Shown here in pieces: positions 44,585 through 53,328 of a stretch of DNA of 64,000 nt. Position numbers and translations under genes: made by a program. Each line of letters begins with the position of its first letter. The stretch's first letter is position 1. Source of the stretch: Lignipirellula cremea (GTDB lineage Bacteria > Planctomycetota > Planctomycetia > Pirellulales > Pirellulaceae); assembly GCF_007751035.1 (NCBI RefSeq), contig NZ_CP036433.1, positions 3,949,001 to 4,013,000 of the forward strand, in the 5' to 3' direction. The notes beneath the pieces were generated by a model. It was not told the origin of the DNA. It saw only the letters and a program-made list of their open reading frames with translations, and did not search any database.

Positions 44585-46045
44585 ATGGCATCGGTATTCA
44601 AACGCGGCGGCAAGCGAGCCAAAGGCTTCTGGTATGCGTCCTGGAACGACGCGGCCGGCAAGCGGCAAACCAAGTGTACGCACACGACCGACAAGGCGAC
44701 CGCCGAACGCATCGCCCGAAAGCATGAAGCGGATGCGGCCCTGCGTCGCGACGGCGTGATCGACCCGGCCTTAGATGCGATCAGCAAAGAATCGCAGCGG
44801 ACGATCGAATCGCATCTGACCGACCACGAGAACAAGCTCCGCGCAGCAAACCGGACCGATAAACACATCACAAGCACGACCAGTTTTATTCGCTGGATCG
44901 CGGACCACGCCAATTTCCAAACGGCGGCAGATATTTCGGCCGACGGTGTCAATCGATACGCCGGCAAGCTTAGGGATGAAGGCAGATCGGCGCGAACGAT
45001 CCAAGCGCACCTAAATGCGATGAAGGCGTTTACCAAGTGGCTGACCGAGCATCACAAATTGCCCCGCGATCCGCTGGCATCGGTAAAGAAGCCGAACCCC
45101 AAATCCGACCGGCGACGCGAGCGGCGCATGCTGCTGCCCGAGGAATGGCGACGGCTGGAAACGGCGACCGAGGCCGGCCCCGAATGCTACGGCATGTCGG
45201 GCGACGAGCGAGCGCTGCTCTACCGCACGGCGATCCAAACAGGCCTGCGATCGAACGAATTGCGCAGCCTAACCCGCGGGCGGTTGTACTTCGATTCGGA
45301 ACCGCCCTATGTGCTTTGCAAAGCGGGCTCCACCAAGAATCGCAAGGAAGCTCGCCAGTATATTCAGCCCGAGCTAGCGGCAAGCCTGAAGGCCCACATC
45401 GCCACTAAAACGCCCAAGGCGCCGGTGTTCAACTTGCCCCACGAATCGAATCTTGCCCGTATGCTGCGCGACGATCTGGCCCAGTCGCGTAAGAATTGGA
45501 TCGCCGAGGCGATCGACGATCCCCACGAATACGCCCAGCGCGAGCAAAGCGACTTTCTGGCCGATGAAAACCACGAAGGCGAAATCACCGATTTTCACTG
45601 CCTCCGGCATACCTGCGGCGCTTGGCTGGCAATGACCGGCGCCCACCCCAAGGTCGTGCAGCAAGTGATGCGGCATCAGTCAATCGTTTTGACGATGGAT
45701 ACCTACGGGCACCTGTTCCCAGGGCAAGAGGCCGACGCGGTCGGACGGATGCGAGAAATGCTTGTCGCTCCGCCGGCGGACCTACGAGCGACCGGAACGG
45801 ACGATGCGACAGTGGACGATCACAAAGCAGCGCAGCGCCAGGCGCAGCGCGCGGCAAGCGAAAGACGGCGATCAGCTGCGACGGGGTGCGAGGACCGGCA
45901 GCCGCCCGGCAAGAAACGCCAATCGCCTAAGCCGTTGCAAATTGCGGACTTAGGCGACGCTGTGCGAACCAGTGCAACGGTTCGCGAAAATAGCGGAGGA
46001 GGGATTCGAACCCCCGACACGCGGATTATGATTCCGCTGCTCTAA
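44585..46045 (+). CDS. int: Tyrosine recombinase (integrase) of the island
   Basis: A 486-residue protein. An N-terminal SAM-like DNA-binding domain (about 75-165) precedes the catalytic domain, with Arg222 (TGLRSNELRSL), His338 and Arg341 (FHCLRHTCGAWLA), His364 (MRHQSI) and Tyr374 (MDTYGHLFPG). The last 15 codons lie in the attachment core and on the antisense strand of tRNA-Met (GGGIRTPDTRIMIPLL). Removal of the core join would extend the frame at the other end of the element. It mediates integration into the tRNA 3' end. Co-directional with the XRE gene. Confidence 0.95.
   Translation: MASVFKRGGKRAKGFWYASWNDAAGKRQTKCTHTTDKATAERIARKHEADAALRRDGVIDPALDAISKESQRTIESHLTDHENKLRAANRTDKHITSTTSFIRWIADHANFQTAADISADGVNRYAGKLRDEGRSARTIQAHLNAMKAFTKWLTEHHKLPRDPLASVKKPNPKSDRRRERRMLLPEEWRRLETATEAGPECYGMSGDERALLYRTAIQTGLRSNELRSLTRGRLYFDSEPPYVLCKAGSTKNRKEARQYIQPELAASLKAHIATKTPKAPVFNLPHESNLARMLRDDLAQSRKNWIAEAIDDPHEYAQREQSDFLADENHEGEITDFHCLRHTCGAWLAMTGAHPKVVQQVMRHQSIVLTMDTYGHLFPGQEADAVGRMREMLVAPPADLRATGTDDATVDDHKAAQRQAQRAASERRRSAATGCEDRQPPGKKRQSPKPLQIADLGDAVRTSATVRENSGGGIRTPDTRIMIPLL
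45988..46037. repeat. Right attachment site of the island
   Basis: This is the 50-bp copy identical to 19411-19460. It restores the 3' half of tRNA-Met here and also supplies the end of the integrase coding region on the opposite strand. The related copy at 15531-15578 shares its first 48 bp. Confidence 0.9.
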
Positions 46046-46064
46046 CCAACTGAGCTACTCCGCC
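45991..46064 (-). tRNA. tRNA-Met (anticodon CAT)
   Basis: A 74-nt cloverleaf on the minus strand: acceptor GGCGGAG with CTCCGCT (a G-U at 1-72), D-arm GCTC/GAGC with AGTTGGTTA loop, anticodon stem GCGGA/TCCGC around ATCATAA, T-arm GGGGG/CCCTC with TTCGAAT. The CCA is not encoded. CAT could also be the tRNA-Ile2 that is modified to read AUA. Its 3' half is contributed by the island's attachment core. Confidence 0.93.
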
Positions 46065-48594: not shown

Positions 48595-49419
48595 TCAGGC
48601 CGTGTCAGCGGGACGCCAGATGAGGATCTCTCCTTTGCCGGGCGCCGACGAGTCGCCCTGGTACAGATCATACGCGCCGTGGTGGGCCGCGTAAGGAAGC
48701 GTGACGCCGTGCGGCTGCAGGTCGCGAGCCAGCACGCGGACGATATCAGGGCTGTAGCGGCAAGCGTAAGAAAACGTCGGCAACAGGGCGAGCGGCTGCA
48801 GGGAAATGATCGTCCCCCGCATCATCCAGGCGCCGGTGCGAATCTCCGCTCCGCTGAGCAGCACGATCGTGCCGCCTTTCATCTGCAGGCCGGCAAAGTC
48901 GCGCACACGTCCGCCAATGATGATGGAGCCGCGCCGCATCCGCATGCCGACTTCCAGCCCGGCCGAACCGCCGATCATGATCACGCCGTTCCGCATGCCG
49001 GCCATGCTGCCGCGATAGGCGGCCCCCACCTGGCCGCCCGCGTCTCCATGCACGCGGATAAAGCCGTGCGTCATTTCCGCGCCGATCCAGTCGCCGGCGT
49101 CGCCATGGACTTCGATCCGGCCGCCGCCCATGTAGGCCCCCAGATGCATGCCGACGCCGCCGTACACCGTCAGGCTGCCGCGGGTCATGGCCCGGCCGAT
49201 CCATTTGACCCGGCGGAGATCGCCGTAAATATGGACGTTGTCGCTACGTTCTCCTGTGATGGTGAAGTAGTCATCCAGCCGGCGGCGACGCTTGCCGTGG
49301 TAAACGGGGCTCGCGCAGATTTCTTCATGCGAGAGTTCCGCAAACACGTCCGGCGACAGACATTCCGCTTCCAGCTGGATCTTCGGGGGCTCTTTCAGCT
49401 TCAGGGTGATCTTGCTCAT
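48595..49419 (-). CDS. fwdC: Formylmethanofuran dehydrogenase subunit C
   Basis: A 274-residue right-handed beta-helix protein with the GXXGXXXG-type repeat pattern (GGVGMHLGAYMGGGRIEVHG, IGAEMTHGFIRVHGDAGGQV, VGMRMRRGSIIIGG). In the Fwd/Fhc complex subunit C binds to A. Start ATG 49419 (CTGGAGGTGGA upstream) overlaps the fwdA stop by 4 bp. Last gene of the fwd cluster. Confidence 0.92.
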   Translation of the reverse strand: MSKITLKLKEPPKIQLEAECLSPDVFAELSHEEICASPVYHGKRRRRLDDYFTITGERSDNVHIYGDLRRVKWIGRAMTRGSLTVYGGVGMHLGAYMGGGRIEVHGDAGDWIGAEMTHGFIRVHGDAGGQVGAAYRGSMAGMRNGVIMIGGSAGLEVGMRMRRGSIIIGGRVRDFAGLQMKGGTIVLLSGAEIRTGAWMMRGTIISLQPLALLPTFSYACRYSPDIVRVLARDLQPHGVTLPYAAHHGAYDLYQGDSSAPGKGEILIWRPADTA

Positions 49420-51050
49420 TCCACCTCCAGGCAATCGCGAAGGTGCGGTTCCTCGATCCGATCCAGTTCGACCGGGTAATTCTCAAACGACATCGTGTAC
49501 ACATCTTCGAAACGCGGTTTGATGAACGCCTCGATCGTTTCGTCGTACTGCGGCCGCAGAATCGATTCCCGCCCTTGCGGCGTGGCCAGAATATCGCCTT
49601 CGGCAATCACAATTTCGCCCCCTTTGATCACGTAGCGAGGATGGCCGAACATGCGAGCGATATCTTTATCTTCATTATAGATCACCAGGTCCGCATCGGC
49701 CCCCACGCCCAGCTGGCCCTTCTCTTTCAGGCCGAGGGCCCGGGCGGGACCGGCTGACATCACCGTGGCGATTTCGTACAGCGTGTACTCGCGATCCAGT
49801 TCCGGCAGATAAATGTTCTTGAGGGCGCTGGGGGTAATTTGCGAGATGCACTCCCGACGGAAATCGGCGCACATGAGCAGCTGGATGATCTCTGGATAAC
49901 GCCAGAAGCAGGCGCCATTGGGGTGATCGGTCGTGAGGAACACCCGCCAGGGATCCTCGATCAGCAGCATCAGCTCCAGGCCAGCCGCCCACTGCACCGC
50001 ATTGACCAGATTGCTGGGACGGTAGGTATAAGGAACAATGCCGCAGCCCGTTTCGTTCTCGACATCGACGTTCCCCCATTTGCGACCCGTCAGCTTGTAG
50101 AGCAAATGCTGCCAGGGGCCGTCGGCCGTGATGGTGACCGTATCGCCAAAGAGCACGGCGCCGGCGTCGCAGGTGAAGTTGGGATGCGCGTTGAAGTACT
50201 CGGCCAGCTGCTTCGTTTCCGAGCGGATATTCGACCAGTCGTCGCCGCCGTACGCATGGTACTGCAGATGGGCCATGTGGGCCCGCCGGCCTTCCAGGCT
50301 GCGCATCGTTTCCAGCGTGGTCGAAATATTGCCCGGCGCGCCCAGGTTGTTGCAGTGCAGGTGCAGCGGATGCGGCAGGCCCAGTTCGTCGATAATCTGG
50401 GCCAGGCCGGAAACGATCGTTGCTGGCGTGAGCGTGTTGTAGCCGGAGATCGGATCGGTCAGCTGCTTGGAGTCATCGCCCCATTTCCAGGAGGCGACGC
50501 CGCCGGGATTCACGGCCTTTACGCCGTAAGCTTTGGCGGCCCAGATCTGCCAGGCGACGACGTGCTTCGCCCGTTCCATTTCGCCCTCTTCGAGCAGGTC
50601 GAGAAGGATCTCATTGTTGGCGAGCAGCACCAGGCAGCTTTTGTCGACGATCGGCACATCGGCCAGCTCTTCGTGCGTATGCCGGGCGGACAGGATCGGC
50701 ACGGCCGCCTCGTTGACGGTCGTCCAGCCCATGCCGGCGTACAGATAGCCGGTGGCGAACGTCGTTGGGGCCATTCCCCCCAGACCGGCCCGCCGGGACT
50801 GGGTGCGAATGAACGCGGTCGTGCGGCGATGATCTTCCGGCGTCATCGCCCGGGCGAAGTTGATGGAGCCGCCAGCGACGTGCGTATGCACATCGACCCC
50901 GCCAGGAAACACAATCATGCCGGCCGCATCGAGTTCGCGGCCGCCCTCCATCGAGGCGACCACCTTGCCGTCGACGATGCAGATATCACGGACTTCGCCG
51001 TTGATGCCGTTAGCCGGATCGTAAACCTTGCCGCCGGTAATCCGTAGCAT
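49416..51050 (-). CDS. fwdA: Formylmethanofuran dehydrogenase subunit A (amidohydrolase)
   Basis: A 544-residue zinc amidohydrolase. It has the metal motif GVDVHTHVAGG (about 50-60), LHLHCNNLGAPGN, MAHLQYHAYGGDDW and FLTTDHPNGA. In archaeal Fwd, A interconverts formate and N-formylmethanofuran, with formate travelling through a tunnel to or from the B subunit. It lies directly after fwdB (110-bp gap) and overlaps fwdC, so they are one operon. Confidence 0.94.
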   Translation of the reverse strand: MLRITGGKVYDPANGINGEVRDICIVDGKVVASMEGGRELDAAGMIVFPGGVDVHTHVAGGSINFARAMTPEDHRRTTAFIRTQSRRAGLGGMAPTTFATGYLYAGMGWTTVNEAAVPILSARHTHEELADVPIVDKSCLVLLANNEILLDLLEEGEMERAKHVVAWQIWAAKAYGVKAVNPGGVASWKWGDDSKQLTDPISGYNTLTPATIVSGLAQIIDELGLPHPLHLHCNNLGAPGNISTTLETMRSLEGRRAHMAHLQYHAYGGDDWSNIRSETKQLAEYFNAHPNFTCDAGAVLFGDTVTITADGPWQHLLYKLTGRKWGNVDVENETGCGIVPYTYRPSNLVNAVQWAAGLELMLLIEDPWRVFLTTDHPNGACFWRYPEIIQLLMCADFRRECISQITPSALKNIYLPELDREYTLYEIATVMSAGPARALGLKEKGQLGVGADADLVIYNEDKDIARMFGHPRYVIKGGEIVIAEGDILATPQGRESILRPQYDETIEAFIKPRFEDVYTMSFENYPVELDRIEEPHLRDCLEVE

Positions 51051-51160: not shown

Positions 51161-52495
51161 TTAAACCTGGTGCGGAATCGATTGGCCGTTGGCATGGATC
51201 CAGTCCGGCTTGGCGGCGACCGCGGCGTGAATGCGGCGGATGACTTCCTCATCGGTCGGATAAGGCGACTTCAGTGCGGGACGCAGCGGCAGCGGCACTT
51301 CATCCATCCGATAGCCTGTGCCCGGAGCGCTGATGCCGGTGGCCGCCGTGGTGATGTGCACCCGCGACAAGCGACTGGTATGCGTTACCTTGGGGTCGAG
51401 CACGATCGTCGGTACGCGGGCGAGGTGATCGATGGCCGGCTGCGGCATAGTGGCGCCCGGATCGGCCCCCAGGATCAGGGCCGCATCGCAGTCGCCGCGG
51501 ACGAGCAGATCCACGGTGGAAAATTCGCCCGGGTTGTAGCGGGGATATCCCCGGTTGAAGTTAATGCCGAACGGATAGCCCGTCTGCCAGCGCATGATGA
51601 CGTCGGCGCCGGTCACGTTGCCGTGGCCCCGCATCGGCATGGCGACAAACTTGGTAAAAGCGTTCATCTCTGCGGCCAGCGTCAGCAGCGCCGCCGAGTT
51701 CATATGCTTGCCGCGGGTCATGGACAGCCCCATGCCGAAGAACATGACGCCAAATTTGCAGCCCTTCATCCGCGCGACCAGATCCTGCAGCTGCTCCAGC
51801 GTGAGGCCCGTTTCGGCCAATAACGCCAGGTCGACTCGCTGCTCTTTGATCAGGGCGCGTAAAATCGTAAGGACTTCAAAGTCCTTGCCGGGACGCACCT
51901 GCAGGAAAATGTCGGCCGCCTTGACGCTTTTCGTTTCTCGAATGTCGACCAGCACCACGGTGCGGTCTTTCCGCCCGTTCGGCAGATGGCGACTCTTGGG
52001 CATCAGGGCGTATTTGGTGAAATGCCGCGGATGGCATTCGGCCGGGTTGCCGCCCCAGTACATGACAAAATCGGCCCGGTTTTTTACTTCACCAAGCGTA
52101 CACGTGACTTTACCGCCCAACTGAGCGGCGATTTCGGTGGGACCATGTCACAAAGAGGTGTGGCTGTCGACCACGCCTCCCAGTCTTTCTCCCAGGGCGA
52201 CCGCTTCGCGCTGGGCTTCGCAGGTGATGTTGCTCATGCCGTAGACCAGCGGCAGATCGGCCGCATCGAGATATTCAGCTGCGGCCTGGATCGCCTCTTC
52301 GACGGTCGCTTCTTTCCCGTCGATCAGGGCGTCGGGATACAAGTGCTCGGCCGTGTGGTTCAGGAACCAGGCTTTGCCCAGCACGCAGGCCCGTTTGGCC
52401 TCGACAATGCGTTCTTCGTTGGCGTGCAACTCGATATCGTCGCACACGCACCCGCAGAACGTGCAGGTGGCGTTATTTACAATGTTGAGACTCAT
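51161..52495 (-). CDS. fwdB: Formylmethanofuran dehydrogenase subunit B, selenocysteine at codon 116
   Basis: Read through one in-frame UGA (52148-52150) the protein has 444 residues. The N-terminus has the [4Fe-4S] motif CTFCGCVC with Cys11, 14, 18 and 37. Then come VVDSHTSL-Sec116-HGPTEIAAQLG and CTLGEVKNRADFVMYWGGNP, the FwdB signature, and PRHFTKYALMP. In archaeal FwdB the residue at this place (Cys118 in Methanothermobacter wolfeii; Sec in some methanogens) ligates tungsten or molybdenum. The frame continues without other defect on both sides, so this is a selenoprotein and not two genes. It catalyses CO2/formate redox chemistry on a bis-MGD cofactor. Confidence 0.85.
52112..52129 (-). 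promoter_or_regulatory. Candidate bacterial SECIS hairpin in fwdB
   Basis: Eighteen nt after the UGA, the mRNA can form a 7-bp stem GCCGCUC/GGGCGGU (two G-U pairs) with the loop AGUU. The apical loop starts 25 nt from the UGA and contains a GU, both consistent with the general features of bacterial SECIS elements. It is a structural inference; no other conserved hairpin was tested. Confidence 0.6.
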
Positions 52496-52745
52496 GCAGA
52501 CTCCCTGGGGGCGGCCTCATGCGGTCGGCCCAGACGGCGCAGGAACCGCGGGGCCAATTGACGGCGTTTCTCAAGACAAAGTGAAGAGGAAAGCGTTGGT
52601 GTGAACGCAATCGCGACTTCTGGCGACAACCGCGGCCAAGGTCAGCAGCGGCCATCCGGGACGACGACGTTTATTCGGGTCGATCTGCAGCAGGCGGAGC
52701 AGGCGCGGCGGAGCCGTCCGAACCGGACGGCGGAACGACGAAAGC

Positions 52746-52910
52746 TCATCCCAGAGCGCGGCCCACGCAACTGCCGCGTACGCGGCGGGGCATATAACGG
52801 CCCGGATCGACTTCTTCCCAAGCCGGGCCGTTGTCGCCCGGTTGGGGGATCTTGAAATGCGGGCTGTTGTCGCCCGCCAGATCCAGGTCGGACTCGTTCT
52901 GGTTTTCCAC
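52746..52910 (-). CDS. Small conserved-looking protein between fwdD and fwdB
   Basis: A 54-residue frame with GTG start 52910 (GAGGAATTCCACC before it). It reads MENQNESDLDLAGDNSPHFK, then IPQPGDNGPAWEEVDPGRYM and PRRVRGSCVGRALG. Its coding strand, ribosome site and position in the fwd operon suggest a real gene. No domain is recognised; one Cys. A role in assembly or electron transfer is speculation. Confidence 0.6.
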   Translation of the reverse strand: MENQNESDLDLAGDNSPHFKIPQPGDNGPAWEEVDPGRYMPRRVRGSCVGRALG

Positions 52911-52980
52911 GGTGGAATTCCTCACAGGTAAGGGTTCACATCGGGGCTGCAGAGAACCTGCAGCCGTTGTCGAAGGCAGC

Positions 52981-53328
52981 TTACTGATTATTCCTGATCG
53001 GTTCGATTTCAATTTCCCAACCTTTGGAAGTCGGCATGCCGGTTCCATCGGTTCCTCCCCCCATGAGCTTGCAGGTGGGCGGGCCGTACACCACAAAGAT
53101 GATTCCGTCGGGCACTTTGCCTGACTCGCACGTAAACTCCGCCTCGCCATGCTCTGTTCGAACGCGGACCGAATCCCCCTGGGCGACGCCTAAATATTCC
53201 ATGTCGGCCGGGCTGATCGTCAGCGTGGTCGTCATTTGAATATAAACGTCGTCGTCCTTGCTGATGTTGATCTGGGCGCCCTGTTTTGCCGTGCGGGAAG
53301 GATTGAGGAGAAACTTTCTCGGTTCCAT
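52981..53328 (-). CDS. fwdD: Formylmethanofuran dehydrogenase subunit D-like (molybdopterin-binding)
   Basis: A 115-residue protein with the molybdopterin-dinucleotide-binding fold, as in FwdD/FmdD: EYLGVAQGDSVRVRTEHGEA and VYGPPTCKLMGGGTDGTGMP then TSKGWEIEIEP. In archaea FwdD completes the bis-MGD site of B. First gene of the operon fwdD-small-fwdB-fwdA-fwdC. Its presence argues that the complex holds the redox cofactor. Confidence 0.9.
   Translation of the reverse strand: MEPRKFLLNPSRTAKQGAQINISKDDDVYIQMTTTLTISPADMEYLGVAQGDSVRVRTEHGEAEFTCESGKVPDGIIFVVYGPPTCKLMGGGTDGTGMPTSKGWEIEIEPIRNNQ

Follow-up and report, generated by a model that had tools for sequence, protein, structure and literature searches.

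In archaeal formylmethanofuran dehydrogenases (Fwd/Fmd), the FwdB subunit is established to carry out CO2/formate chemistry and to exchange formate with FwdA, and to our knowledge no small open reading frame (ORF) of the kind described below occurs in these systems. The bacterial FhcB protein of the formyltransferase/hydrolase complex has lost the catalytic metal site, the residues of which remain in the FwdB analysed here. Its sequence relation to this FwdB is weak (6s6y, E 5.3e-12), and its 361-residue chain aligns in part. A closer precedent is the planctomycete P2 (Rhodopirellula), for which a selenocysteine (Sec)-containing FmdB, encoded in an operon of the order fmdD-fmdB-fmdA-fmdC, was already described in 2016 (PMC4807772). 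The P2 system resembles that of our locus in family, gene order, the Sec in FmdB, the possession of a second fmdB form in the genome and the Sec machinery. Unlike the DNA analysed here, no small ORF or second UGA is mentioned between fmdD and fmdB in the parts of that report compared (PMC4807772). The role of selenium in FwdB is described as unknown in the text taken from PMC13188914.

The fwd operon and the UGA codon of fwdB

The window analysed, 64,000 nucleotides from Lignipirellula cremea, carries on its minus strand an operon ordered fwdD - small ORF - fwdB - fwdA - fwdC. The genes fwdA (49416..51050; TIGR03121, 690.7 bits) and fwdC (48595..49434; TIGR03122, 251.2 bits) accompany fwdB, as does the first gene of the operon, fwdD (52981..53328), which scores 72 bits against NF042908 and thus below that model's cut-off of 175. 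Contrary to PMC5020050, an excerpt of which gives fwdD as absent from planctomycetes, the operon has a recognisable, although sub-cut-off, fwdD. In contrast to archaeal Fwd/Fmd, no polyferredoxin gene was seen by eye among the fwd neighbours. The gene for FhcD (400.7 bits) lies at another site in the genome, which also carries two copies of fwdA, so that a second, scattered gene set exists besides the operon.

The frame of fwdB (51161..52495, minus strand) holds a sole internal stop, the TGA at 52150-52148 (52148..52150 on the forward numbering), which is codon 116 and is followed by His-Gly-Pro. ORF calling under table 11 returns two ORFs of 115 and 319 amino acids, whereas the read-through product scores 482 bits against TIGR03129 (cut-off 327.8) and is thus a FwdB. 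The N-terminal CxxCxxxC motif is C11/C14/C18, and together with a fourth cysteine, C37, it is invariant in 16 aligned rows, as expected of an Fe-S cluster site. In the alignment, the UGA faces a Cys in two FwdB chains of known structure, 8rja_B and 5t5i_B, and an X, presumably Sec, in 9sfi_Q. The ligand position and Fe-S cysteines of the archaeal enzymes (5t5i, 8rja, 9sfi), whose ligand is Cys or Sec, align with those of the FwdB here, and archaeal FwdB chains are 32-38% identical to it in structure alignments (rows 1-5, which exclude 9sfi). These results bear out what an earlier note on this DNA had claimed of fwdB, namely one frame divided by a single UGA, a gene caller's two pieces, an intact cluster motif and a UGA at the archaeal metal-ligating Cys/Sec. 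FwdB would be a Mo/W-bisMGD formate-dehydrogenase-like subunit with Sec116 as its probable metal ligand. The predicted FwdB model is silent on the Sec site, since residues 113-130 have pLDDT values below 50. In a fold comparison Fwd chains rank first (Z 24.7-25.9), but the rmsd of 17.7-17.8 leaves this ranking little weight.

Scanning GTDB contigs yielded 415 confirmed relatives of fwdB, the nearest from Pirellulaceae and other planctomycetes. The best 80 of these 415 were examined at the codon level, and all 80 have TGA at codon 116. With ten loci from a search of the phylum, one of them the window's own gene, they make up 90 Sec-type loci, a few of which are identical in sequence. Between codons -115 and +300 relative to the UGA, as far as the loci extend, none of the 90 has a further in-frame stop. 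The UGA of fwdB is thus more than a chance event. A lone UGA does resemble a point lesion, as if fwdB were a pseudogene or had been mis-sequenced at codon 116; we give this reading next to no credence, as the same UGA in 80/80 loci of other records (again the best 80 of 415) was taken as already refuting it, fwdB shows no other lesion, and the Sec machinery is present.

Sec and Cys also exchange at this position. A fwdB of any kind scored above the family cut-off in 25 of 392 genomes sampled from the phylum, and a UGA-fwdB did so in ten. Across 31 fwdB copies the ligand residue is Sec in ten, Cys in ten, Gly in five, Ser in one and deleted in five. Matches to TIGR03129 below 75 bits with one TGA resemble formate dehydrogenases and were left uncounted. 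The Cys form is found in sister operons of the same phylum (L101, L102, L103 and L106), whose FwdB is 56-62% identical to that of the window and which share the D-B order but differ in their Cys ligand and in the D-B spacer discussed below. It is also found in the genome's own second fwdB (G000:C1:7545344-7546582; L131:7315-8619), around which no fwdA, fwdC or fwdD was found in 17 kb. In other phylum genomes, the fwdB copies L119 and L121-L130 have Gly, Ser or a deletion at the ligand place and no fwdA, C or D within approximately 1.5 kb; perhaps the metal site has been lost repeatedly in such stand-alone copies. In the final tree, from which the long-branch rows L127-L130 were left out, the 38 Sec rows used form one clade (100/98). 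A group uniting Sec- and Cys-type rows to the exclusion of the archaeal ones had weak support in an earlier tree (86/69) and was not recovered in the final one, so we make no ruling between a Sec-first and a Cys-first history. For the family at large, PMC7331816 argues that the ancestral ligand was Sec.

Directly behind the fwdB UGA lies a SECIS-like hairpin, GCCGCUC-AGUU-GGGCGGU (52112..52129, minus strand), with a G in its small apical loop, as the bacterial-type element is described in the relevant part of PMC1088965; the same source places the archaeal SECIS in the 3' UTR, in contrast to the position here. All 90 genes (90/90) have CAG at codon +9 and TTG at codon +10 past the UGA, although over these genes as a whole the share of CAG among Gln codons is 73% and that of TTG among Leu codons 19%. 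Codon entropy at the TTG column is 0, compared with 1.35 bits for the next lowest of 14 conserved Leu columns. These two codons make the tip and closing pair of the consensus GCYGCYC-AGUU-GGGYGGY. All seven pairs are present in 82/90 rows, against about 9% expected when AAQLGG is recoded by the genes' own codon usage, a comparison that is not a probability since the rows are related. The peptide AAQLGG itself occurs in 92/95 Sec rows; the Cys and archaeal rows have AxQxxG instead, a difference suggesting that the RNA may determine the peptide over the hairpin. The fold energy of single stretches gives no signal against shuffles (z -0.78, -0.63, 0.36 and -1.62), and the case for the fwdB element rests on codon-level conservation. 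Three diverged loci of the G421 group (L164, L165 and L166) keep both UGAs of the operon and differ in the peptide over the fwdB element, which reads AVQVGG or ATQLGG, and in the small protein.

A second in-frame UGA between fwdD and fwdB

The earlier note was right about the UGA of fwdB and overlooked a second one some 600 bases upstream. It lies in a small ORF between fwdD and fwdB (52671..52910, minus strand) that has a GTG start, a TAA stop and a Shine-Dalgarno-like GAGGA at 52919-52923, read by eye. Translated through its UGA at 52746..52748, this candidate new selenoprotein gene would encode 79 residues with Sec at position 55; standard ORF calling terminates it at that UGA.

Besides the window, 90 Sec-type loci were inspected for fwdD: 85 have it upstream of fwdB, and the other five, in which it was not found, stand outside the spacer counts. 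The resulting 86 Sec-type operons showing fwdD have fwdD-fwdB spacers of 193-645 nt, apart from four longer ones (878 to 1,760 nt), in contrast to -6 to 64 nt in the four Cys-type loci showing fwdD. Four of the 86 spacers repeat another, leaving 82 distinct. In an ORF comparison across the 86, each of 15 listed ORFs matched one in all 85 others. An initial pattern blind to stops matched 54 spacers, with TGA in 54/54, and a final pattern naming neither the stop nor a residue at that place matched once per spacer in 86/86, always with UGA.

The peptide around this codon follows the pattern GR[FY]MPRR[VI]RGSxxGRxLG-U-xF, and the frame is under selection on both sides of the conserved UGA. Over 77 rows, in-frame pN/pS amounts to 0.195 across the 18 codons that precede the UGA and 0.435 across the five that follow, compared with 1.0-2.5 in shifted frames. 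Within 11 codons past the UGA, none of the 82 distinct rows has a stop in frame, whereas 5 and 20 rows have one in the two other frames. The second residue after the UGA is Phe in 82/82, encoded by TTT in 41 and TTC in 41, and 13 positions including the Sec are invariant over 30 rows. The N-terminal part and the tail are variable, as is, widely, the distance to fwdB. An AlphaFold model of the small protein is poor (pTM 0.31) and silent on the Sec site. From these sequence comparisons, the small ORF looks to be translated past its UGA.

Behind this UGA, too, lies a SECIS-like hairpin, with a GGUU apex (52714..52730, minus strand) and compensatory changes. The covariation test used 78 rows aligned with MAFFT, six pairs and 500 shuffles. 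The hairpin pairs in 95.5% of cells, compared with 87.7 in the shuffles (0/500 as high) and 24-49% in slid versions. Neither the 54 cells changed on both sides nor the covariation score of 0.366 (against 0.214) was reached by any of the 500 shuffles, and the 10 further pair types were reached by 11/500; the number of pairs with two-sided change, four, was not significant (99/500). The loop, which contains a G, is mostly GGUUC, GGUCC or AGUUC (60/68 distinct rows), a count made on 80/82 rows and, like that of the offsets, with one row (L089) mis-set. The hairpin lies mostly at two offsets, exactly one codon apart.

A UGA is normally a stop, and the codons over the hairpin show weak protein-level constraint (pN/pS 0.79), as would be expected if the small ORF ended there and the hairpin were an mRNA element for regulation or stability instead of a SECIS. 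We regard this as improbable. The UGA was recovered in 86/86 spacers by a pattern that does not name it, UAA, UAG and Cys codons were never seen in its place, beyond it the frame is still open and selected, and the hairpin's two main offsets differ by one codon. Our preferred reading, to which we assign a probability of roughly 87%, is that both UGAs of the fwdD - small ORF - fwdB - fwdA - fwdC operon are read as Sec, Sec116 being a ligand in FwdB and the small ORF giving a 79-residue selenoprotein. The UGAs and their conservation, the two hairpins, the genes of the machinery and the pattern of co-occurrence are observed, whereas Sec insertion at both codons is presumed. SelB carrying Sec-tRNA(UCA) would be recruited by each hairpin, whose loop lies approximately 18-25 nt behind its UGA.

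Selenocysteine machinery and distribution of the two UGA genes

The source genome, a single contig of 9.57 Mb, encodes all four components of the Sec machinery that the earlier note had proposed searching for, at sites apart from one another: a tRNA-Sec (71 bits, ARAGORN anticodon TCA), SelA (546 bits), SelB (356 bits) and SelD (245 bits). The 743-residue SelD (L018:310-2541) carries an N-terminal fusion to a pyridine-nucleotide-disulphide oxidoreductase domain. A further tRNA-Sec candidate, L002 (49.6 bits), proved to be a tRNA-Ser.

Machinery and UGA-fwdB were compared in the 43 phylum genomes with a FwdB match above 158 bits, one fragment (G079) being excluded. SelA scores above cut-off in 10/10 UGA-fwdB genomes compared with 4/33 genomes with other fwdB genes. 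A tRNA-Sec was found in 9/10 and 4/33, respectively; the one UGA-fwdB genome in which it was not found is 62% complete, and the count of four takes in a match of about 50 bits (G061) that may be a tRNA-Ser. Of the 40 genomes behind 40 of the 80 relatives' loci, SelA was seen in 38 and not seen in two; at least two of these genomes also belong to the 43-genome set. Two genomes (G130 and G315, the former with 6% contamination) have SelA and tRNA-Sec yet Cys in their fwd operon; presumably other selenoproteins keep Sec decoding there.

The amino acid at the UGAs is deduced from sequence, which leaves room for decoding by near-cognate readthrough or as Trp. We consider this very improbable, given a tRNA-Sec with a TCA anticodon alongside SelA, SelB and SelD, a ligand residue that is Cys in 10/31 fwdB copies and Trp in none, and two hairpins of the SECIS type. 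The earlier note's central claim, that the genome makes a Sec-containing FwdB, is thus supported by the machinery, by Cys exchange and by UGA conservation, and is less new than implied, given P2 (PMC4807772, in the part compared).

The distribution of the small ORF is narrower than that of Sec decoding. When the 392 phylum genomes were searched with alignment A2, strong matches (E <= 7.4e-18, one TGA each) fell in exactly the ten genomes with UGA-fwdB, the next-best match having E 0.0018. No match was found in G130 or G315, in spite of their SelA and tRNA-Sec, so the small ORF would appear to track Sec-FwdB rather than Sec decoding per se. Nor was one found in the genomes of the four Cys-type operons (L101, L102, L103 and L106). 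In a second group of 297 genomes, from the phylum of G421 (Acidobacteria), the genome of locus L089, the small ORF occurs in six, each time with TGA and beside a UGA-fwdB; one of the six loci, L089, was already in the query alignment. No Cys form was found in the 689 genomes (392 + 297) at the thresholds used, under which up to 17 (392 set) or 23 (297 set) first-look candidates were scored per genome, such that a diverged Cys form could be missed.

A candidate partner of Sec-type FwdB

A selenoprotein is usually recognised by its cysteine homologues, which published searches make use of although they are not strictly defining. One method, described in PMC1088965, retained candidates only given Cys homologues, and a filter of this type would hide the small-ORF family. 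The hypothetical proteins in the excerpt of PMC12013277 have Cys homologues. The part of PMC13188914 that holds a table of 119 families lists FwdB and has no matchable entry for the small ORF; most of its "hypothetical" entries carry NCBIfam numbers. Matches to Pfam (best E 0.14, one of 30 rows), NCBIfam 20.0 (best E 0.026, one of 30 rows, and E 0.096) and PDB sequences (E 3.6) were not taken as real, plasmids and PADLOC gave no match, and no description was found in open-licence papers. We read the small ORF as an undescribed selenoprotein family and a putative partner of Sec-FwdB. The operon would thereby contribute a candidate selenoprotein for which no Cys counterpart was seen, a class that is prone to be missed by methods that depend on Cys/UGA pairs.

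The main competing interpretation is that only fwdB is a selenoprotein gene, and that the small ORF is a selenium-sensing leader peptide whose UGA and hairpin tune translation of fwdB, its product having no independent function. The position of the small ORF directly upstream of fwdB in all 86 Sec-type operons showing fwdD fits such a leader, as do its variable N-terminal part and tail and its poor structural model. The strong selection on the peptide before the UGA, the 13 invariant positions including the Sec, the Phe at +2 kept through equal use of both codons, and a distance to fwdB that varies widely, unlike that of an attenuator, all argue against it, and we hold it to be unlikely.

In the Sec-type complex, CO2/formate chemistry most likely takes place at a Mo/W-Sec site of FwdB; formate would be exchanged with FwdA, so that its formyl group can pass to a carrier of the methanofuran type. 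The complex as a whole would interconvert CO2 and formylmethanofuran or a methylofuran analogue. The small protein would most likely be a subunit or maturation partner of this enzyme. More tentatively, and at somewhat less than even odds, we propose that the family exists in the Sec form only and with Sec-FwdB only, and that it serves as a dedicated partner, its own Sec working on, or together with, the Sec-ligated metal site in assembly, oxygen protection, or electron or proton relay. Were this so, two selenocysteines of two polypeptides would cooperate in one enzyme, and the family would have escaped notice owing to the reliance of published searches on Cys homologues. The small ORF, present wherever a Sec ligand coincides with a visible fwdD and not found with a Cys ligand, offers a handle on the role of selenium in FwdB. 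It also bears on annotation, as ordinary ORF calling cuts fwdB in two and shortens the small gene to its UGA.

Elsewhere in the window, an ORF for a phage-type integrase (44585-46045; Pfam Phage_integrase) overlaps a tRNA-Met (45991-46064) on the opposite strand, possibly marking an integrated element with its attachment site.
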